Assembly (NCBI GenBank): GCA_029547705.1
Contig: JAKPOU010000035.1
Location: forward strand, 1-64,000
Direction: 5' to 3'
Length of the DNA stretch: 64,000 nucleotides
Source of the DNA: Bacteroidota bacterium
GTDB taxonomy: Bacteria > Bacteroidota > Bacteroidia > Bacteroidales > VadinHA17
Each line of letters begins with the position of its first letter. The stretch's first letter is position 1. Both the position numbers and the translations under genes were made by a program. The notes under the pieces are model-generated. The model was not told the DNA's origin and ran no database searches. It was given only the letters and a program-made list of their open reading frames with translations. Positions 43,742 to 55,887 of the stretch are shown piece by piece.

Positions 43742-45373
43742 TTAGGGTTTTTTATCCCACCATAGTTTGGTAGTGCCATTATCAGGTCCGCCAAGCTTGC
43801 TTACTGCCTTTTCCACTTCGGCCTTGTTGTTTGTGTATTCTCCGGTGATAAAGGTGAGCCTTGTCGGCAGTGAAGTCGCCGCTATCAGGGGTTCCTCACT
43901 CTCGAGCCTGTCATAGAGTTTCGGGTATTTTGTAATTCTCCGCACAGTCCATGCTTCAATACTGTTTTCAGGATACAGGCACAGCCATTTTTGTGTGATG
44001 ATCTGCTCCAGTTGCTGTTCCTTGCCGCCGGTTGTCATGAATGCCACTGGCACTGTTGACACCGGCGGAATAACCGTTCCCGGATCTGAAAGGTCTGTGC
44101 CCGGGCTTGCCGGTATCCTGTCGCTTGTGATATAATCTTCCCCTGCCAGGTTCTGATAATCAGAATATCCCCATTCATCAAATGATGCCTTGATACCTTT
44201 TTCATAGAGTTCCTGAGCTGTTCCGCCCATATTCCAGTTTTCCAGGGCACCTTCAGCCCTGAGAAAATATGATTCGTCTGCACCCATTACTCTCCAGGCG
44301 GGCCCGGCAGCACCGAGAGAAACCCAGGATTTGTGCATGTCGGAAGCATGACCGTTAAAATCCAGCTGCTGCCTGTCCGATTTGGTCTGGCCATTCCTCA
44401 TTCCTTCAAAATTAAACACCACATCGTCCGGATCATCTGTGGGGTCAGGAAATTTGGCTTCCTGAAAGTAACTCTGGACACGGGGATCAAGATAACCCTT
44501 CATGATGCTCTCCATGTCGGCACTCATCCTGAATTCCATCCATGAGGTAATGGTACAGTATGCATTGTACCAGTCAATTGAAGTAGCCACTTTTGCATTG
44601 TCGGCAACGTTTTCTATGACACCTGCCGAGACAGCTGCTTCAGCCTGAGTTCTGGCAAGTGTGGGATTGACGTATTTGCAATGCAGAGCCAGCCTGAGGC
44701 GCAGGGAGCTTCCGAGTTTGGCCCATTTTGCTATATCGCCCTTGTAAACATCATCATAGGCTTGCAGGGTAGCTGATTTGCCCTGAGACAGATTGGCCTT
44801 TAGCACCGTTACTGCACTTTCAAGTTCCTCGAAAAACAGAGCGTATAGTTCCTCCAGACTGTCATAGGGAACGGCCTTTTCCATATTTCCGAAATGTGAA
44901 TAAGGTATGGCCCCGAAGGAATCGGCGTATTTTGCAAAAGCATTTACCCTCCATATTTTCATGATTGCTTCTTCGACCGCCAGGCCCTTTTCCTTGGCAA
45001 AATCAACACAGAACTGAATGGGCGGGGCGGCATTCTGATAAAACGAATTGAATGAGCCGTTCAGCCAGCTGCCTACCAGAACATACCTGTCCGACAGGAA
45101 GTTCGGATGGGTTGTTGCAAAATAGTTTGCATATACATCTCCGAAAAGGGAGTGATAGGTCTGCATTCCCGTACTGTTCCGCAGGTAGGAAGTATATACT
45201 ATCGCCCTTTTTGCCACCAGACCGAAGGATGACTGGTCAAGGCTGGCCACGGTGATGGCCTTTGGATTGGTATTTATTTCATCGAAATCCTTTGTACAAC
45301 TGCCTGCGAAAACAGCTAATGCAAGAACTGATATTATTATTAACAGGTTTTTCATATTATTTTGTTTTAACAT
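43742..45373 (-). CDS. SusD/RagB-family outer-membrane lipoprotein
   Basis: MKNLLIIISVLALAVFAGSCTKDFDEINTNPKAIT; SYFLRAEGALENWNMGG. Confidence 0.93.
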   Translation of the reverse strand: MLKQNNMKNLLIIISVLALAVFAGSCTKDFDEINTNPKAITVASLDQSSFGLVAKRAIVYTSYLRNSTGMQTYHSLFGDVYANYFATTHPNFLSDRYVLVGSWLNGSFNSFYQNAAPPIQFCVDFAKEKGLAVEEAIMKIWRVNAFAKYADSFGAIPYSHFGNMEKAVPYDSLEELYALFFEELESAVTVLKANLSQGKSATLQAYDDVYKGDIAKWAKLGSSLRLRLALHCKYVNPTLARTQAEAAVSAGVIENVADNAKVATSIDWYNAYCTITSWMEFRMSADMESIMKGYLDPRVQSYFQEAKFPDPTDDPDDVVFNFEGMRNGQTKSDRQQLDFNGHASDMHKSWVSLGAAGPAWRVMGADESYFLRAEGALENWNMGGTAQELYEKGIKASFDEWGYSDYQNLAGEDYITSDRIPASPGTDLSDPGTVIPPVSTVPVAFMTTGGKEQQLEQIITQKWLCLYPENSIEAWTVRRITKYPKLYDRLESEEPLIAATSLPTRLTFITGEYTNNKAEVEKAVSKLGGPDNGTTKLWWDKKP

Positions 45374-45382
45374 GTTGCTGTA

Positions 45383-48300
45383 TTAAAAATCGAAGTTAAG
45401 GGATACGCCGAATGTCCGGGTTGTTGGCAGTGCGAAAGCTTCACGCCCTTCGTCAGTGTTTGCAGTACTGTTGACAATCTCGGGATCGGAGTGCTCAGCC
45501 TTGTTCATGAAGAAGAACAGGTTTCTGCCTACCAGGGATACCCGGGCTGCACTGAAGAATGTCTTGGCAACAAGATCTTTCGGCAGATTGTACCCGAGAA
45601 TCACTTCCCTGAGCCTGATATTTGTGGCATCTCTCACGAATGCCTCACCGGCCGGATTGTTTCTTCCGCCAACATTATTCCAGAAAGCTTCAGCATTGGT
45701 GGCTTTCGTATTTGCTCCGCCTTCGGGCGTCACACCTTTTTCATTCTTGAAAATATCCCTGCCGAAAAGGAGGGAGCCGTCTTCCCTGCCTATTGCGGTA
45801 TAGTCGAGAATTCCGTTTCCGGCAGTTATGGCCTCGGTGAATGAAATAAAGGAACCACCCCATCTGGCATCAATAAGTGCATTAAGTGACAGGTTCTTGT
45901 ATGTTATGGTATTGCTCAGGCCTCCCAGCCAGTCGGGATTGTAGTTTGCAACCTTCACTGTCATACCGGAAGTAATAAGGGGAAGCCCGTTTGCCTGGTT
46001 TATTATTACATTGCCATTTGCATCCCTTTGAAATCCTTTTGCATATACATCTCCGAAAGCTTCACCTTTTACGAGCTTATACTCCCTTATAAAGTCTGTT
46101 CCAAAGGAGAGAACGTCGAATCCTTCGGCAATTTCAAGAATTTTGCTGACATTCTTCGACCAGTTGAGCATGATGTCCCAGGAGAAATCGCGCTTGTCAA
46201 CCACCACTGCTCCGAGGGTCAGTTCCACTCCCCTGTTCTGGACATCGGCACCATTCTGATAAACGCTGCTCACTCCCGAAGTCACGGGAACCGGAGTGGA
46301 GAACAGCTGATCATAGGTATTTGTCTGATACCATGTTCCGCTCAGCCTGCCCCTGTCGTTGAACATTCTGAGATCAAGCCCGGCCTCAATGGATCTTGTC
46401 CTTTCGGGCTTGAGGTTCGGGTTGGGAAGTGATGTGCTGAGTCCTATTGTGCCCAGGGATACTGAAGCTGACCTGTGGAGATTGTATGCTCCTGCATCAT
46501 TTCCCACCTCGGCATAGGATGTCCTGAGCTTGAAGTGAGTAAATGCAGCAGGCAGGGTCATCAGATCGCTCAGTACAGCCGTCAGCCCTACAGAGGGATA
46601 AAAATATGATCTGCTTGCAGCCGGCAGGGTGGAGCTCCAGTCATTCCGTCCGGTAATATTCAGGAACAAGGCATTTCTCCAGGATAATTCACCGAATCCG
46701 TAAAAGGACTGAACCACTTTCTTTGAATATCCCTCGCCGGGCCTCGGATCTTTCGTGTTGGCAAGGGCGAACATGTTTTCAATATTGAAAATTGAACCCG
46801 AACCGCTTACGTTTTCTGATTCATACAACCTGTGGTTGCCTCCGGCGTTGAGGTCCAGTGCAAATTCGCCAAAATTCTTATTGTAGTTGATGAGGAAGTC
46901 ATTGTTCCATTCATAGGAATTGGAACTGGTTTTTGAAAAAGCTCCGTAATAGGCATTGGTATAGGTGTCGTTGTTGCGCTTCCATTCCGTGTTTGTATAT
47001 GTGCCGTCAAACCCTGACCTGCCCTGAATTGAGAGTCCGGGCAAGAATTCATATTTCAGGCTCATCATTGCAATTGCCCTTTGGCTCTTTGATGGCTGTA
47101 CTGCATTGTAAACGGACCAGTAAGGGTTTCCCGAACCGTTGTCGTTCACTTTCCAGTAGTGCTGGCGCAGCTGACCCGCAGGGTTAATGAATTCATAATG
47201 CTGAATATCTTCCGAACGTATGTTCCTGGGCAACATATAGAGATATCTCATGGGATTCTCAAATGTTTCACCGGTAATAAACACATTGGAATAGTTCCTT
47301 TTAATTACATTAAGTTTTGAATCCAGTGTAAGCTTCCTGGAAAGGTTGGCACGTACCCTCAGGTTGAGGTTATGTCCTTTCAGGTCATTACCGTCAATAA
47401 TCCCTCCATCGTTGCTGTTGGTATATGAGAAGGTTATATTCGACACGTCAGAATTGATGTTCACCCCGAGGTTTGTTGAGAAACTGTTGCCGATCCTGAA
47501 AAAATCCTTTATGTTGTTGGGCTGAGGCAAAAACGGATATTGTTTACCATACATATAGTAGGAGGGGTCGTTTGACCAGTGGTCGACCATCTGCCCTTCC
47601 ATCTTCGGGCCCCATGCCACTGTCGCTGCTTTTGCATACATACCGTTTGCTCCCTGCCCGTAGATATTCTGAACCTTCTGCAGGATCATGGCCTGATTTG
47701 CCTGGTAGGTAAAGCCGAGACTGGTAGTGACACCCTGACGGGCACCCTTCCCTGATTTTGTTGTTACAACAATTGCCCCGTTGTTTGCACGGCTTCCGTA
47801 AAGAGCTGCGGCGTTTGCTCCCTTCAGAACCGAAATGGATTCAATTTCATCGGGACTGATGTTTTCAATTCCTCCGTTGAGCGTAATACCGTCAACCACG
47901 TAAATCGGCTGACTGCTTCCGCTGATGGAGCGGTTTCCCCTGAGCAGAACCTTGGTGCTTCCCCCCACTCCCTGACCGGTCTGTGTAATAAGCATTCCGG
48001 ACACCTTTCCGCTTAGTCCCGACATTACGTTGGGATTTCTTGCCTCGGTAAGAGCATCGGTGGTTACGCTCTGGGCTGCATAGGTAAGTGATTTTGTCTG
48101 CCTCGAAATACCGAATGCCGTGACAATAACATCCTGCAGTGCCATTACATCCGGTTCCAGTGTTACATTGAACACAGTCTGTGTTCCTATTGACAGTTCA
48201 ACCGTTTTCATGCCCACATAGGAGAAGGACAGGCTTTGTGCATCGGTTGGAACATTAAGGGTAAATGCCCCGCTTGCATCAGTCGTGGTACCTATCGTGG

Positions 48301-48442
48301 TGCCCGGCACCACCACAGTTGCCCCGATAATGCCAAGCCCGTCCTCGGCACTTTTTACGGTACCGGAGACAAGCTTCTGTGCAAATACACTCTGCAAGCC
48401 TATAAAAAAGAAGGCTGCAATAAACAAAGTGAATTTTCTCAT
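45383..48442 (-). CDS. SusC/RagA-family TonB-linked outer-membrane protein
   Basis: VSGTVKSAEDGLGIIGATVVVPGTTIGTTTDASGAFTL, ALQDVIVTAFG, NAAALYGSRANNGAIVVTTKSGK. Confidence 0.97.
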   Translation of the reverse strand: MRKFTLFIAAFFFIGLQSVFAQKLVSGTVKSAEDGLGIIGATVVVPGTTIGTTTDASGAFTLNVPTDAQSLSFSYVGMKTVELSIGTQTVFNVTLEPDVMALQDVIVTAFGISRQTKSLTYAAQSVTTDALTEARNPNVMSGLSGKVSGMLITQTGQGVGGSTKVLLRGNRSISGSSQPIYVVDGITLNGGIENISPDEIESISVLKGANAAALYGSRANNGAIVVTTKSGKGARQGVTTSLGFTYQANQAMILQKVQNIYGQGANGMYAKAATVAWGPKMEGQMVDHWSNDPSYYMYGKQYPFLPQPNNIKDFFRIGNSFSTNLGVNINSDVSNITFSYTNSNDGGIIDGNDLKGHNLNLRVRANLSRKLTLDSKLNVIKRNYSNVFITGETFENPMRYLYMLPRNIRSEDIQHYEFINPAGQLRQHYWKVNDNGSGNPYWSVYNAVQPSKSQRAIAMMSLKYEFLPGLSIQGRSGFDGTYTNTEWKRNNDTYTNAYYGAFSKTSSNSYEWNNDFLINYNKNFGEFALDLNAGGNHRLYESENVSGSGSIFNIENMFALANTKDPRPGEGYSKKVVQSFYGFGELSWRNALFLNITGRNDWSSTLPAASRSYFYPSVGLTAVLSDLMTLPAAFTHFKLRTSYAEVGNDAGAYNLHRSASVSLGTIGLSTSLPNPNLKPERTRSIEAGLDLRMFNDRGRLSGTWYQTNTYDQLFSTPVPVTSGVSSVYQNGADVQNRGVELTLGAVVVDKRDFSWDIMLNWSKNVSKILEIAEGFDVLSFGTDFIREYKLVKGEAFGDVYAKGFQRDANGNVIINQANGLPLITSGMTVKVANYNPDWLGGLSNTITYKNLSLNALIDARWGGSFISFTEAITAGNGILDYTAIGREDGSLLFGRDIFKNEKGVTPEGGANTKATNAEAFWNNVGGRNNPAGEAFVRDATNIRLREVILGYNLPKDLVAKTFFSAARVSLVGRNLFFFMNKAEHSDPEIVNSTANTDEGREAFALPTTRTFGVSLNFDF

Positions 48443-48692
48443 AGTTAGAACATTAAGTTAGTTTTAGATAAAAATGAAAATTGAATAAATAATTCTCAAA
48501 TCAGGTTTTAAATATTACTGTTAAGCATATTTGGTAATTCGTGCGTTAAATTATGTTAAATATTTCAAATATCATAGTGTTTTTGTTGTTTTTTTCATTT
48601 TTTGTATTTTCTGAAAATTTCAATACATTTGAAATCTTTCCGGAGATACTGCGCAAAAGGCCTGGTCTGACCCTAAAACAGAAGAAACAGCA

Positions 48693-50249
48693 ATGAAATT
48701 TTCCGAAAAACGGTTGCGAATCAGCAGAATGATATTTCCAGGATTTCTGTTGGTCACATTATTGCCGGTTCTTCTCATGAACTGTGGCAGAGGCAGTCAT
48801 GTTGAAGCAGCAGTAAACATGGAACGCCTTGCGCTGACAGATCCTGATTACTCCGAAACAATAATACCCTGGAATATTGCCCCCATGAACTTCAGCATCC
48901 TGGAGGAATACAAAACCTGTAAAATCAGGTTAAGCGGAACGGACGGCAGTTCACTGACAGTGAATACCTCAGGAAAAACGGTAAGATTCCCCCGGAAAAA
49001 ATGGAAAAAACTGCTTCTCCGGAACAGGGCAGGCAGAATTTCCGTGGAGATAATGGCGGAGAATGGAAGGGAGAAAGCTATGAAGTTCAAGCCTTTTAAT
49101 TTCTATATTGCGGATGAGCATACAGATCCTTACCTGGTTTACAGGATTCTTTATCCGGGATATGAGGCATGGCTTGACATGAAAATAGTTCAGAGATCAA
49201 CTGAAAACTTCAGTGAGAAATCCATTGTGGAAAACCAGCTTCTGGATAATAATTGCGTTAACTGCCATTCCTTTGCCAATAATGATCCCTCTAAGATGCT
49301 TTTGCATGTACGGGGTACAAAATCAGGAACATACATTTCGGAAAATGACAAAATCGTGAGACGCTCCCTGAAAACTGACAATATGCCGGCCAATACGGTT
49401 TATCCTGCCTGGCATCCTTCAGGTAATTATATTGTGTTTTCATCGAATAAAACAGTTCAGGCCTTTCATTCAAGACCGGAAAAGAATATCGAAGTATTTG
49501 ACCTGTTCTCGTCCCTTGTCATCTATGATGTTAAAAGGAATGAAATAATGAATTGCATGCAGGATGATTCTGTTGAATACATGGAGACTTTCCCCTGCTG
49601 GTCACCGGACGGAACATGGCTTTATTACTGCAGAACCCCGCAGGTAAGGGAAGGATTTGATTTCAGGGAAGTTAAATATGATCTGGTGAGAATTCCCTTC
49701 AGCCAGCAATCAGGGAATTTCGGTAAGCCTGAAATGCTGTTCAATGCGGCTGCAGCAGGTAAAAGCGTTTCCTTTCCAGCCGTTTCACCTGACGGCAGAT
49801 ATGTTGTATTTACCCTTCATGATTACGGTACTTTTTCAATATGGCACAGGGAGGCGGATTTGTATATTCTTGACATTTCTGGCGGCAGGATTTCAAAAAT
49901 GCCGATCAACAGCAATGAGTCTGAAAGTTATCATTCATGGTCTTCAAGCGGCAGATGGCTGGTCTTCAGCAGCAAGAGGGACGACGGACTTGCGGCACGG
50001 CCATATTTATGTTATTTCCATTCGGCCGACAGCATTGGAAAACCATTCATACTTCCGCAGAAAGATCCGCAGGTTTACACCCGTATGAAAAAAACATTCA
50101 ACAGACCGGAATTTGTTACAGGAAAAATTGAGACCGGACCCCGTGATTTTGAAAAGGCTTCCCGTTCAGAGCCGGTTCAGGCCGTTTGGACGGGATCTTC
50201 AGAACTGAAAAGCCATAAGGATGAAAGGTACGGGAATGAGAAATACTGA
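48693..50249 (+). CDS. Lipoprotein with c-type heme motif (CVNCH) and WD40-like/TolB-type propeller
   Basis: LLVTLLPVLLMNCGRG leader; NNCVNCHSF at about 49254-49268; PD40-like YPAWHPSGNYIVFSSNK, FPCWSPDGTWLYYC, FPAVSPDGRYVVF. Confidence 0.85.
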   Translation: MKFSEKRLRISRMIFPGFLLVTLLPVLLMNCGRGSHVEAAVNMERLALTDPDYSETIIPWNIAPMNFSILEEYKTCKIRLSGTDGSSLTVNTSGKTVRFPRKKWKKLLLRNRAGRISVEIMAENGREKAMKFKPFNFYIADEHTDPYLVYRILYPGYEAWLDMKIVQRSTENFSEKSIVENQLLDNNCVNCHSFANNDPSKMLLHVRGTKSGTYISENDKIVRRSLKTDNMPANTVYPAWHPSGNYIVFSSNKTVQAFHSRPEKNIEVFDLFSSLVIYDVKRNEIMNCMQDDSVEYMETFPCWSPDGTWLYYCRTPQVREGFDFREVKYDLVRIPFSQQSGNFGKPEMLFNAAAAGKSVSFPAVSPDGRYVVFTLHDYGTFSIWHREADLYILDISGGRISKMPINSNESESYHSWSSSGRWLVFSSKRDDGLAARPYLCYFHSADSIGKPFILPQKDPQVYTRMKKTFNRPEFVTGKIETGPRDFEKASRSEPVQAVWTGSSELKSHKDERYGNEKY

Positions 50250-52017
50250 GAGCGCCCATGATGTTCAGACTGAACGGACACAGGACCGGCTTCTGGCTGC
50301 AGCCCTTTTTTCTGTGTCATTCCTGTTTTTTTACTTTTTCAGAAATACCCTTTTCAACTATCAGGAAAGCACATCATTGTTTATATATACGAATGAGTAT
50401 CTCTCAAAATTTACAGACAAACCCGGGGGACTGCTTGTATATCTCGGAAATTTTCTCAGTCAGGTTTATTTCTCATCTTTTTACGGTTCGATAATCCTTG
50501 CACTGCTTAATATTACCCTCTGTTTCTGTATTGCCAGGGCCGGAACTGCCCTGAATGCAGATTTGATCCTTAAAAGGATATTGTTACTGTCCCTTTTTGC
50601 TGTTATGCTGTTATTCCAGTCGCAGTATGAACATTTCATTCATTACAGCCTGGGCTTTCTGATGGTGGCAGTCTGTTTTTCAGTGATTGTAACAGTAGGT
50701 GCAGGATGGCGAAGATTAATTTATTTTACGGGACTTCCACTGTTTTACTATGTTGCAGGACCCTTTGCAGTTTTGTTTGTCTTAATGCTGATCAGCTGGT
50801 CCCTTGTTTATGAGAAGGGTCGTTTCCGCTTCCTTAATCCTCTTCTCATGATAGTTATCAGCATTATTGCCTGGTTTGTTTTCCGGAATTATCTTTTTTA
50901 CCAGCCGGCCCGGACGCTTGTTCTTTATCCATTGCCCTTCACTTCTTTCAGGCAATTGCATTTCTCCATGATAATTCTGGCATTGTTTTTTGTTTTCCTT
51001 CCGCTTTTTTATAAACTGACTGCTCTTGTCAGGATTACTGGCAGAACCCGGAGCTGTCTTTTTCCGGCCTTTTCACTGGTGCTTTTTCTGCTTCTGCTCT
51101 TTTTATCCCTGAAATACCACAATTCCAGCCTTGTGAAAATAATACGCCTGGAAGGAATGATTGCACGGCAGGACTGGGACGGAGTGATAAGGCAGCAGGA
51201 AGAGTCGCCCGTTGCAAATCTGATAGCCCAGTATTATTACAACCTGGCATTATCAGAAAAAGGATTGCTCTGTGAGAGAATGTTCAGAGCGCCGCAGGAT
51301 TTCGGTGCATCCTCACTCTGCCTTCCCCGGCATGCTGAATTTTATAACCGGTCGGTCCATTTCTATTATTCGGCCGGACTTATCAATGAAGCCCGCCACC
51401 TGGCCTACGAGTCAATGGTAGCATATGGCTACCGCCCGGGAAACATTGACATGCTTATTAAAACCGAACTTATTAACGGAAATTTCAGGGTAGCAGAAAA
51501 ATATATCAATGATCTGAAAAAAACTCTTCATTACCGGACAAAAGCCATTAAATACAGGAAGATGCTCTACAGACCGGAAGCCGTAAAGGCCGACAGGGAG
51601 CTGGGGAGTAAGCTTCTGTTGCTGCCGGGGAACGATTTTTTTATCAGACCTGATGACCGTGAAAACATCAATCTGCTCTTTCTGTCGAACCCATTGAACC
51701 TAAAGGCTTTTGAGTATAGAATCGCATGGATGCTGCTTGAAAAGGATTATAAATCTGCAGTACATGAAATCAGGAGAATGAAATTCCTGGGTTACAATAT
51801 TATTCCCAGACATCTGGAAGAGGCAGTGGTGGGCTATGCAAACATCAGCGGCCGGATGCCTGATCTGGGAGGTCTGAGCCTGAGACCTGAGACGGAAAGG
51901 GATTTCTTCGAATACGGCTCGGCATATAACCTTTTCAGCAGGGATAAAGAGACCCTGGCCGGGGAAATGAAGAAAACAGCAGGAAAAACTTACTGGTATT
52001 ACCTTCAGTTCAAATAA
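50221..52017 (+). CDS. Polytopic membrane protein, DUF6057-like
   Basis: About 9-10 hydrophobic segments followed by a soluble C-terminal region; start overlaps the upstream stop. Family assignment from memory of Bacteroides homologs. Confidence 0.7.
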   Translation: MKGTGMRNTESAHDVQTERTQDRLLAAALFSVSFLFFYFFRNTLFNYQESTSLFIYTNEYLSKFTDKPGGLLVYLGNFLSQVYFSSFYGSIILALLNITLCFCIARAGTALNADLILKRILLLSLFAVMLLFQSQYEHFIHYSLGFLMVAVCFSVIVTVGAGWRRLIYFTGLPLFYYVAGPFAVLFVLMLISWSLVYEKGRFRFLNPLLMIVISIIAWFVFRNYLFYQPARTLVLYPLPFTSFRQLHFSMIILALFFVFLPLFYKLTALVRITGRTRSCLFPAFSLVLFLLLLFLSLKYHNSSLVKIIRLEGMIARQDWDGVIRQQEESPVANLIAQYYYNLALSEKGLLCERMFRAPQDFGASSLCLPRHAEFYNRSVHFYYSAGLINEARHLAYESMVAYGYRPGNIDMLIKTELINGNFRVAEKYINDLKKTLHYRTKAIKYRKMLYRPEAVKADRELGSKLLLLPGNDFFIRPDDRENINLLFLSNPLNLKAFEYRIAWMLLEKDYKSAVHEIRRMKFLGYNIIPRHLEEAVVGYANISGRMPDLGGLSLRPETERDFFEYGSAYNLFSRDKETLAGEMKKTAGKTYWYYLQFK

Positions 52018-52199
52018 ACATTAAAAATTTCTGTTTCAGGCCTGCCAAATATTTTTATTATCGTCAGGAATTATAATATTGCAGAATGTTATTACTTCAT
52101 CTTTCAGTCACAACATTTCACAACAACGGCCCGGTATGTTTCAGCAGCCCGGTAACGGCGAAGATTATCAACCGGCTAATTTAAAACCAAATAACATTA

Positions 52200-55100
52200 T
52201 GAAAAAAATAATCGCATCAAGCTTGTTAACATTGTTCCTGCTGGCTGCCTATGCTCAGGAAGCCAGGATCAGTGAGGAATACATACCATTTACCACCTAT
52301 TCCTTTAATGATCCGGATCCGGTTGCACGCCCCGGATCTATTTTTCCGTACTTCAGGTTTGACGGATTTTCATATACTCCGGAAGTGGTAAAACATAAAA
52401 TGATAGTACTTGAAAACAAATGGATAAAGGTGTGGGTTGCTCCGGATATAGGGGGCAAGGTATGGGGTGCCCTGGACAAAAAAACCAACAAGTATTTCAT
52501 TTATCACAATAATGTAGTGAAATTCAGGGATATTGCAATGAGAGGACCGTGGACCTCAGGCGGTATAGAACATAATTTCGGATCGATTGGTCATGCCCCC
52601 ACCACATCGACGCCCGTTGACTATTCCTGGCAGAAAAATGATGATGGAAGTGTTTCGTGCTTTGTCGGTTCAATGGATCTGTCCTCACGGACAGAATGGA
52701 GGGTGGAGGTAAGGCTGCCGAAAGACAAGGCATGGTTTGAAACAATATCCCACTGGTATAATCCGACAGACCTGAAAACTTCCCTCTATCACTGGGAAAA
52801 TGCCTCGGCTGACGGCACGAATGATCTGAGGTTTTATTTTCCCGGCAAGGCGGAAATAGGGCATGGCGGCGAACCGGGTGACTGGCCCGTGCTGAAAAAC
52901 GGGCGGGATATATCCCTGTACGGGAATAACAATTTCGGATCATCAAAAAGTTATCACGTGCTTGGGGAATATGCCGACTGGTTTGCCGGATTGTATGAAC
53001 GGAGCAACCATGGATTCGGACACTGGTCAAGGCAGCCGGTGAAGCCCGGAAAGAAAATATGGATATGGTCACTTGGAAGGGACGGTGAAATATGGGTTGA
53101 CCTTCTGACCGATACACAGAAAGGTAACACCCAGTATATTGAAATACAAACCGGACTGCTTTATAATCAGGCAGGGGACGGCAGTACCAGGAGCCCTTTC
53201 AAGCATGTGTTCTTTGAACCGGGGGCAGTCGAAAGCTTTACAGAGTTATGGTTTCCCCTGAGCGACCTGGCAGGAGTAAGCACTGTTTCCCCCGAAGGAG
53301 CACTTTTTGCGGAGAAATCCGAAAACAGGTGCACAATCCAGTTCCAGGCCCTTGGCTATGTCAGGGATAAGCTGCAGATAACCGACACAGAGGGTAAGGT
53401 AATCTCCGAATTTGAACTTAATCTGGAACCGGAACAGATTTTCTCCAGGTCGGTTGAACTGGAGAATTTTAACGTAAAAGTCCGCCTGGCAAACGGTGAA
53501 CTCAGGTATAACCTTGCTGACAGAGAAGAAAACTTTGTTGATCGTCCCCTCAGCATGCAGGAAAACTTCGACTGGGAATCAGTTTATGGCTTGTATACCA
53601 GGGGAGTCGAAAAGATGAGACAGCGTCAGTATTCACAGGCTGCCACCCTGCTTGAAAAATGCCTGGAAAAGGATCCGTTCTTTATGCCCGCACTGACAGC
53701 ACTGGCTGAAACAGATATCCGTTTCATGAAATTTGATGAGGCCGAACGGAAACTGCTCGAAGTAATCCGTTTTGATACCTATGATCCTGATGCCAATTTC
53801 CTCTACGGCACACTTCTTATGAGGAAAAAGGAATTCAACAAGGCCCGTGACGCTTTCGGGGTCACGCTCAGGTCAGTGCAGTATAAGGCGACTTCCCGTA
53901 ACAAGCTGGCATTGATAGCCTTAAGTGAAAACAGGCTTGAAGAAGCATGGAAATACGCAATGGATGCCGTGGAATATAACGCCAAGGACAGGAACAACTA
54001 CGGTACGGCAGCTGTTGTGGCAAGGCTGAAGGGAGACAGGGGATCACATGAGGAGCTTCTTGGGAAAATGCTGAAAATGGATCCTCTCAATCATTTTGCC
54101 TTGTTCGAGAAATATTATATGCTGAAGGATGAGACATCAAAAACCGGCTTTTTATCGAGGATTACCGGGGAATTCAAATATGAAACCCATATTGAACTTG
54201 CTCTCTGGTATTTTAATGCCGGCCTTCTGAATGAAGCTATTTCCGTTATGGAAATCTGTCCGGAAAATCCCGTAGCCGATTATCTGACTGCTTATCTGAT
54301 GTCACTGAAAAATAATGCCGAAAAGGCACAGTTTTATCTTACAAGGGCAATTAATGCCGATGATAAACTGGTTTTTCCCTACAGGGAAGAATATGCCGCT
54401 GTTCTTGAATGGGCAGACAAACAGCAGCAGAGCTGGAAAACCAAATATTATTCCGCAATTCTCTACTGGAACAGAACACGTAATGACATCGCGGAAAAAT
54501 ATTTCAGTGAATGCGGTGATCAGCCCGACAGTTATTCCTTTTATCTGAGCAGGGGCAGATTTCATGATGAAACAGGAGGACGGGCCGAAACGGATTACCT
54601 GAAGGCACTGAAACTGGGTGAAAATAACTGGAGGCCCTATCATACCCTTTACAACTATTATGTTGCGCACAACAAATATGACAGGGCGCTGGAGATTACC
54701 CAGAAAGCCATCAACATGTTCCGGGACAAATATGTAATAGCTTTTGATCATGCCATGTCCCTGCTCTACAACGGAAAATATGACGAAAGTGTCAGGATTC
54801 TTGAAAGAATCAGAATCCTTCCGTATGAAGGTGCGGGATATGGGAGAATGGCCTGGAAGAATGCAAACCTGCTGAATGCTTTGGACTATTACTCGGGCAG
54901 AAACTACAGGAGAGCATCCGTTTATGCAGCTAATGCATATAAATGGCCTGAGAACCTTGGGGTTGGCAGACCGTATACAGTCGATGAAAGGGCCGAGGAT
55001 TTTGTAAATGCAATGATTCTGGAGAGGTCGGGAAACAAAAGGAAATCAGCGGAACTGTATGAAAATATTGCACGTTACAATGGCGGAAAACCTGCCGGGA

Positions 55101-55366
55101 ACAGATCTATGAACTATTTATCGCTTGCTGCACTGAAGAAACTCGGACAGAAGCAGGAAGCAGATCTTTACCTGAGGCAGTGGATGGAAATTCCGGGGAA
55201 TGATAAAATAAAGGAATGGGCCCGGCTGATGCAGGAAGGCAGGAAAAATGAAGCCGGCGACATATTGAAATCGCTTGGTGAGTCCGGAGAGGGAACACCA
55301 TGGAATCCCCGCGACACTGATTCTGATTTCCGCCTGGTAAATGAAATTGCACAGAAGATAAACTGA
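52200..55366 (+). CDS. Exported DUF5107-type (mutarotase-like) domain plus TPR protein
   Basis: Start corrected to MKKIIASSLLTLFLLAAYAQ; KWIKVWVAPDIGGKVWGALDKKTNKYFIYHNNVVKFRDIAMRGPWTSGGIEHNFG; C-terminal TPR-like helical repeats. Confidence 0.85.
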
Positions 55367-55449: not shown

Positions 55450-55887
55450 TCAGAACCAGGTCTGGACCAGAACCTTGTTGTCATGCTGGAACTCACTGAT
55501 CCTGTACCAGATATTATTATCATTCTCAATCTGGTACATCCAGTATCCAAACGGACCCGGTGACTGGTACACCCTCCTCAGATAAAGCCGGTCGCCTTCC
55601 GAAAATTCACACTTCCTTGCATAGGTTGATATCTTCCCGTAAACAGTGTCCTGTGTGGTTTTTATCCAGATAAGGTGCGGTGATCCGATTTTTACCGGAT
55701 CACTGTGCCTTGAATCCACAAACTCACCTACATACTTGCGTGTGATAAACAATTCATCCTCATGCATCATTGCTGACTTGTTTGAGGTGGCGCAGGAAAA
55801 GGCAAGCATTATTAACAGAACAAATCCGCTTTTTTTCATGACCTGATAACTTTTAACCAACACTTCCCGCTGACAGAAAACCCTCAT
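55450..55887 (-). CDS. Small lipoprotein of unknown function
   Basis: Internal start MKKSGFVLLIMLAFSCATSNK gives a lipobox-like leader. Confidence 0.6.
   Translation of the reverse strand: MRVFCQREVLVKSYQVMKKSGFVLLIMLAFSCATSNKSAMMHEDELFITRKYVGEFVDSRHSDPVKIGSPHLIWIKTTQDTVYGKISTYARKCEFSEGDRLYLRRVYQSPGPFGYWMYQIENDNNIWYRISEFQHDNKVLVQTWF

Follow-up and report, generated by a model that had tools for sequence, protein, structure and literature searches.

The window, by which we mean the whole stretch of 64,000 nucleotides that was analysed, contains three consecutive plus-strand genes for a predicted propeller lipoprotein, a polytopic membrane protein of the DUF6057 family and a protein with a DUF5107 domain and TPRs, next to a SusC-SusD pair. 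The features are as follows.

43742-48442, minus strand: SusC-SusD pair, divergent from the propeller gene
48601..48631, plus strand: Bacteroidota-type promoter-like site, TTTG-19-TACATTTG, a pattern match ahead of the propeller-DUF6057 pair
48693..50249, plus strand: propeller lipoprotein gene (gene 1), 518 amino acids; PF07676 PD40, E = 3.8e-22; pLDDT 92; nearest PDB fold TolB
48783..48785, plus strand: Cys31 codon, predicted lipidated cysteine; 97% of the 98 homologues aligned have Cys here
49254..49268, plus strand: CVNCH codons, residues 188 to 192, predicted heme c attachment site on the basis of CxNCH conservation
49932..49934, plus strand: His414 codon, candidate second axial ligand on the basis of histidine conservation across both propeller groups
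50221..52017, plus strand: DUF6057 gene (gene 2), 598 amino acids, polytopic; PF19529, E = 1.2e-109; AF2 pLDDT 94.6
52079-55366 (open reading frame call), plus strand: DUF5107-TPR gene (gene 3); DUF5107, E = 1.5e-109, then TPRs

The original prediction treated the three genes as one tightly packed system divergent from a SusCD pair. The description of the individual genes and their divergence from SusCD proved correct, and genes 1 and 2 overlap by 29 nt (14 nt if gene 2 starts at the internal ATG at 50236). For gene 3, the open reading frame tool chose a TTG start at 52079, and the natural signal-peptide start is the ATG at 52199 (MKKIIASSLLTLFLLAAYAQ...), which leaves a gap of 181 nt behind gene 2, so the tight packing does not extend to this gene. 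The promoter-like site ahead of the pair is only suggestive, since the pattern has 4 matches in the 64-kb window versus 1.8 expected by chance. Convergent with gene 3 lies a 145-amino-acid lipoprotein-like open reading frame (55450-55887, minus strand) without a Pfam match.

The system in this region is a two-gene unit, propeller plus DUF6057, that is co-inherited in many Bacteroidales. The two families have an identical distribution, occurring in the same 19 of 149 Bacteroidales genomes sampled (propeller at E <= 1e-60, DUF6057 over its curated cut-off), and for 39 of the 44 propellers in this sample a DUF6057 gene is adjacent on the same strand. Among 60 related genomes plus the window's own, 56 of 58 propellers have a DUF6057 gene within 3 kb, and DUF6057 genes within 1.2 kb of a propeller are always on its strand. 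The clustering in other Bacteroidota that had been mentioned in the original prediction is thus borne out for these two genes, but not for DUF5107. In the 78 pairs taken from named genomes, the two genes are a median of 3.5 nt apart, with 89% of pairs separated by no more than 50 nt or overlapping. Pairwise protein distances of the two families correlate with an r of 0.77 (maximum of 0.10 across 500 permutations), which we regard as supporting evidence only because shared ancestry contributes to it. The propeller gene comes first in 21 pairs and the DUF6057 gene in 57, and the two orders form distinct sequence groups; some loci, L082 and L105 among them, have two or three pairs in tandem. A few solitary propellers and solitary DUF6057 genes were found among the relatives and in the Bacteroidales sample.

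The named carriers of the pair are mostly Bacteroidales, including gut genera, and a phylum-wide sample, drawn mostly from other classes and hence of limited value, yielded just two further genomes with a true pair (L196 and L197). The titles of three records (L057, L089, and L104) name KSB1 or Gemmatimonadetes, which may reflect transfer or binning error. Within the literature library searched, there was no paper on DUF6057 and none on the propeller-DUF6057 pair. The pair is a genuine conserved system, assembled from catalogued families (PD40 propeller and DUF6057) and apparently undescribed before.

In the genome to which the window belongs, propeller and DUF6057 genes number three each, and DUF5107 genes two. 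A second propeller-DUF6057 pair lies on contig C38 without DUF5107. Near it, a NapC/NrfH-type multiheme cytochrome (PF03264) and a formylglycine-generating-enzyme-like domain (PF03781) share a single 512-amino-acid open reading frame (L010:1566-3104). On contig C66 (L011:7988-15716), a propeller gene unaccompanied by DUF6057 precedes, in the same direction, genes for a chorismatase-like protein, a DUF4838/GH67N protein, an FAD oxidoreductase, and a membrane 4Fe-4S protein, which may amount to a redox gene cluster. On contig C11 (L012:7860-9755), a DUF6057 gene that lacks a propeller partner adjoins SusCD, Gfo/Idh, and xylose-isomerase-like genes.

The neighbourhood of the pair is strongly enriched in SusC genes and recurrently includes SusCD, as would be expected of a component of polysaccharide utilisation loci. 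Of the 35 pair loci that extend 5 kb or more in both directions, 22 have a SusC gene within 5 kb. SusC coverage amounts to 20 to 27% at distances of 2 to 5 kb and drops to roughly 4% or lower past 7 kb, whereas control regions around CcsA and DUF5107 genes in related genomes show 0% and 1.2%, respectively; the distance profile includes SusC genes cut by locus ends, as well as the control loci. The link to SusCD that was originally proposed is therefore upheld. SusD is the commonest family within two gene positions of the pair; recurrent neighbours of low frequency are Gfo/Idh oxidoreductases, xylose-isomerase-like barrels, a chorismatase-like protein, and various glycoside hydrolases. The pair-linked SusC proteins are diverse (median identity of 29%) and lie on either side of the pair in all four orientations, which rules out a single SusC clade or arrangement. 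The pair thus goes with SusCD loci generally and not with one substrate. The neighbour survey found neither a fixed enzyme set near the pair nor a redox enzyme as a constant neighbour. The chorismatase-like protein, which has an FkbO/Hyg5-like N terminus and a RidA-type C terminus, is encoded immediately after the propeller gene, in the same direction, at 11 loci (L070, L074, L078, L080, L082, L089, L091, L097, L105, L115, and L011); we rejected it as a fixed downstream partner, as most loci are without it and the genes beyond it vary.

That the gene 1 product is an exported propeller lipoprotein is strongly supported by its sequence, with Cys31 at the lipobox position, an N-terminal beta domain, and a six-bladed TolB-like PD40 propeller. 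The AF2 model has TolB as its nearest solved structures (E = 1e-14). TolB of the Tol-Pal system shares this fold, in which an N-terminal domain precedes a six-bladed PD40 propeller, and is also the best NCBIfam match. However, the score of 36.4 bits is far below the equivalog cut-off of 343, and while TolB partners Pal and TolA, the window propeller is a CxNCH lipoprotein that is partnered with DUF6057.

Each propeller contains one CxxCH motif, which always takes the form CxNCH (92 of 92 propellers; CVNCH in the window), and this form is kept in 11 of 11 aligned distant paralogues at approximately 27% identity. The original prediction had staked its heme proposal on the conservation of this motif, and on that point it stands. 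For a further paralogue, L188, the contig ends before the motif position. The named loci were collected with the peptide patterns PxNIAP[LM]NF and [ED]SYH[ST]WSS[NSG], which leave the CxNCH count unbiased but bias that of His414 in the named set; the distant paralogues came from whole-genome searches and hence are free of this bias. Residues C188, N190, C191, H192, H414, R151, W104, N406, and N470 are conserved in the pair-type propellers and in the 11 distant paralogues, and H192 and H414 are the sole histidines conserved across both groups. H205, H241, and H385 are conserved in the pair-type propellers together with R207 and C313, and these three histidines are not shared with the distant paralogues.

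The distant paralogues belong to a wider superfamily of CxNCHSF propellers (L181 to L195) that is apparently uncharacterised, also occurs outside the order, and includes some TPR-fused members. L185, L187, and L195 share with gene 1 the N-terminal domain, CxNCH, the propeller, and H414, and they differ in having a TPR array at the C-terminal end of the same chain (702, 735, and 944 amino acids, respectively) and no obligatory DUF6057 partner. We know of no function for such CxNCHSF propeller-TPR proteins.

On these grounds, it is likely that the propeller carries heme c at CxNCH. The conservation pattern is consistent with a heme c whose proximal ligand is His192, and His414 is the best candidate for a second, distal axial ligand, a role that is plausible given its retention in both groups. 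Two marks of a c-type cytochrome are present, an invariant CxxCH in a protein predicted to be exported (cysteine at the lipobox position in 97% of homologues) and a heme c maturation system in the host, whose own genome encodes PF01578. This CcsA/CcmC domain for heme c maturation is present in 19 of 19 pair-bearing genomes compared with 104 of 130 others (hypergeometric P = 0.02). Being common in pair-less genomes, where it serves other cytochromes, and having other CxxCH proteins beside it, CcsA is a necessary but not a specific sign. NrfA exceeds its cut-off in just 9 of the 19 pair-bearing genomes, and the idea that CcsA would serve the propeller alone where NrfA is lacking fails, because several such genomes have other CxxCH proteins next to CcsA. 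In the propeller, none of the cytochrome c families in Pfam exceeds its cut-off (Cytochrom_C, 14 bits versus 21.3), and for this reason we do not file the protein under a known cytochrome c family.

An alternative is that CxNCH has a metal-site or structural role in the core of the propeller, the propeller then being a ligand-binding protein or enzyme and DUF6057 its membrane partner. We consider this unlikely but retain it, mainly because of where the motif sits: in the AF2 model, CVNCH lies within a beta strand (residues 188 to 195; strand 1 of blade 1 by strand order) that, from propeller anatomy, is presumably the innermost one and faces the channel, and a heme c motif inside a beta strand would be unusual. 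The additional conserved residues of the pair-type propellers (H205, H241, H385, R207, and C313) could serve such a site, and both the association with SusCD glycan loci and the presence of a propeller lyase, oligogalacturonate lyase (3c5m), among the fold matches would suit an enzyme. The lyase match is weak, however, and common to all propellers. Moreover, the exact CxxCH order is kept in all homologues, including paralogues that lack H205, H241, and H385, and CcsA accompanies the pair in every one of the 19 genomes; these points argue against this alternative.

Other proteins also combine heme with a propeller. Cytochrome cd1 nitrite reductase, NirS, which is among the gene 1 fold matches, also holds heme in a propeller. 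That propeller is eight-bladed and binds heme d1 non-covalently, with a separate cytochrome c domain, whereas the CxxCH of gene 1 lies within the propeller itself. The alpha subunit of hydrazine synthase likewise combines a propeller and heme c in one protein, but its heme alphaI is housed in a middle domain of its own, with a Tyr ligand and zinc (PMC12758564, PMC12607021), so we dropped it as a model. Were the heme c assignment correct, the superfamily could constitute a structurally new class of monoheme c-type cytochromes, with a heme on the first strand of blade 1, ligation by His192 and His414 near the central channel, and a TPR fusion or DUF6057 partner, acting as a redox or sensing unit with SusCD loci; such a class is a speculative proposal that we would rate as rather improbable at present.

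Gene 2 encodes a full-length member of DUF6057 (PF19529), a family without an assigned function (368 bits against a gathering score of 29.8; residues 24 to 598 on profile positions 8 to 569). The AF2 model divides it into a membrane domain at approximately residues 8 to 300 and TPR-like helical repeats at approximately residues 302 to 598. The chain begins with a long helix, two short ones follow, more membrane helices extend to roughly residue 298, and TPR-like helices occupy the remainder. A Foldseek search with the full-length model gave no PDB match below 1e-3, the best matches being helical-repeat proteins. The helix order resembles that of GT-C enzymes, and E49, the one acidic residue in the membrane domain with strong conservation (89%), lies 19 residues before a PGG, like the DE...PP of PMT_2 enzymes. 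On this reading, DUF6057 would be a distantly related GT-C-type glycosyltransferase that ends in a TPR domain, and the pair would modify a glycoconjugate of the periplasm or surface, but this seems improbable. A profile-profile comparison (hhalign) with 14 PMT_2 proteins gave a probability of 25% and was out of register (1.4% for a CcsA control), so homology is not supported and we keep this reading as a rival only. In addition, a Pfam scan of 76 DUF6057 members gave no GT-C match except DUF2142 in 1 of 76 (E = 0.01), and no GT-C enzyme is among the fold matches listed, although the TPRs in the full-length query may mask one.

Finally, it is most improbable that the DUF5107-TPR protein is a functional third component: its gene is adjacent to the pair on the same strand in the window, and a DUF5107 gene lies within 10 kb in 2 of 80 surveyed loci (L051 and L108, the latter on the opposite strand), but gene 3 has its own signal peptide behind the 181-nt gap, and among 51 DUF5107 matches in 61 genomes (60 related plus its own), none of the 50 others lies within 10 kb of either pair gene. 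None of the 60 sampled relatives has DUF5107 beside the pair, and no constant partner gene was found at the DUF5107 loci. The expected co-conservation of the trio is thus contradicted by the neighbourhood survey, and we reject the trio as a conserved unit; genes 1 to 3 might form a local cotranscript in the window. Gene 3 matches DUF5107 (PF17128) well above the gathering score (366 bits versus 24.4), and its domain is similar to PDB 5cd6, so in family terms it is a DUF5107-TPR protein outside the propeller-DUF6057 module. A DUF5107 match occurs in Escherichia coli too. The mutarotase-like fold of gene 3 had been used to argue for heme-linked glycan handling, and since DUF5107 is not part of the system, that leg of the argument falls.

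As the best explanation, which we put forward tentatively and with less than even confidence, we propose a monoheme c-type propeller that docks on periplasmic TPRs of DUF6057, the two together working for SusCD-linked loci as a redox or sensing module of the envelope. The propeller would be carried into the periplasm as a lipoprotein, where CcsA-type machinery would attach one heme c to CxNCH, the iron being held by His192 and probably by His414 on the opposite side. DUF6057 would reside in the inner membrane, with its C-terminal TPR-like repeats facing the periplasm as a docking platform; we infer this topology. Docking of the propeller on these repeats is plausible, and we are evenly balanced in our judgement of it. 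The conserved residues P529, E534, W592, and Y594 of the TPR helices would be candidates for the contact surface. TPRs are present in cis in some paralogues and on DUF6057 in the pair, and the simplest reading is therefore that DUF6057 supplies the TPR in trans. The role of the complex would lie in redox reactions or redox sensing connected with uptake loci of the SusCD type. Redox transfer or sensing linked to SusCD-imported nutrients is a guess, guided by the heme c reading and the gene neighbourhood, and probably the less likely outcome. Counting against the proposal as a whole are the location of CVNCH in a beta strand, the below-threshold scores for Pfam cytochrome c families, the frequency of CcsA in pair-less genomes, the variable surroundings without a constant redox enzyme, and the few solitary propellers and DUF6057 genes.

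In summary, DUF6057, a family that had no assigned function, is tied here to one partner with an identical genome distribution, and the predicted ligands H192 and H414, along with the predicted docking domain, make its function directly testable. If the heme c assignment is true, the propeller would add a new scaffold or structural variant to the c-type cytochromes. Furthermore, to our knowledge, no redox element has been recognised beside SusCD uptake genes in the gut genera Bacteroides, Parabacteroides, and Prevotella, and a heme-bearing propeller would place one there.
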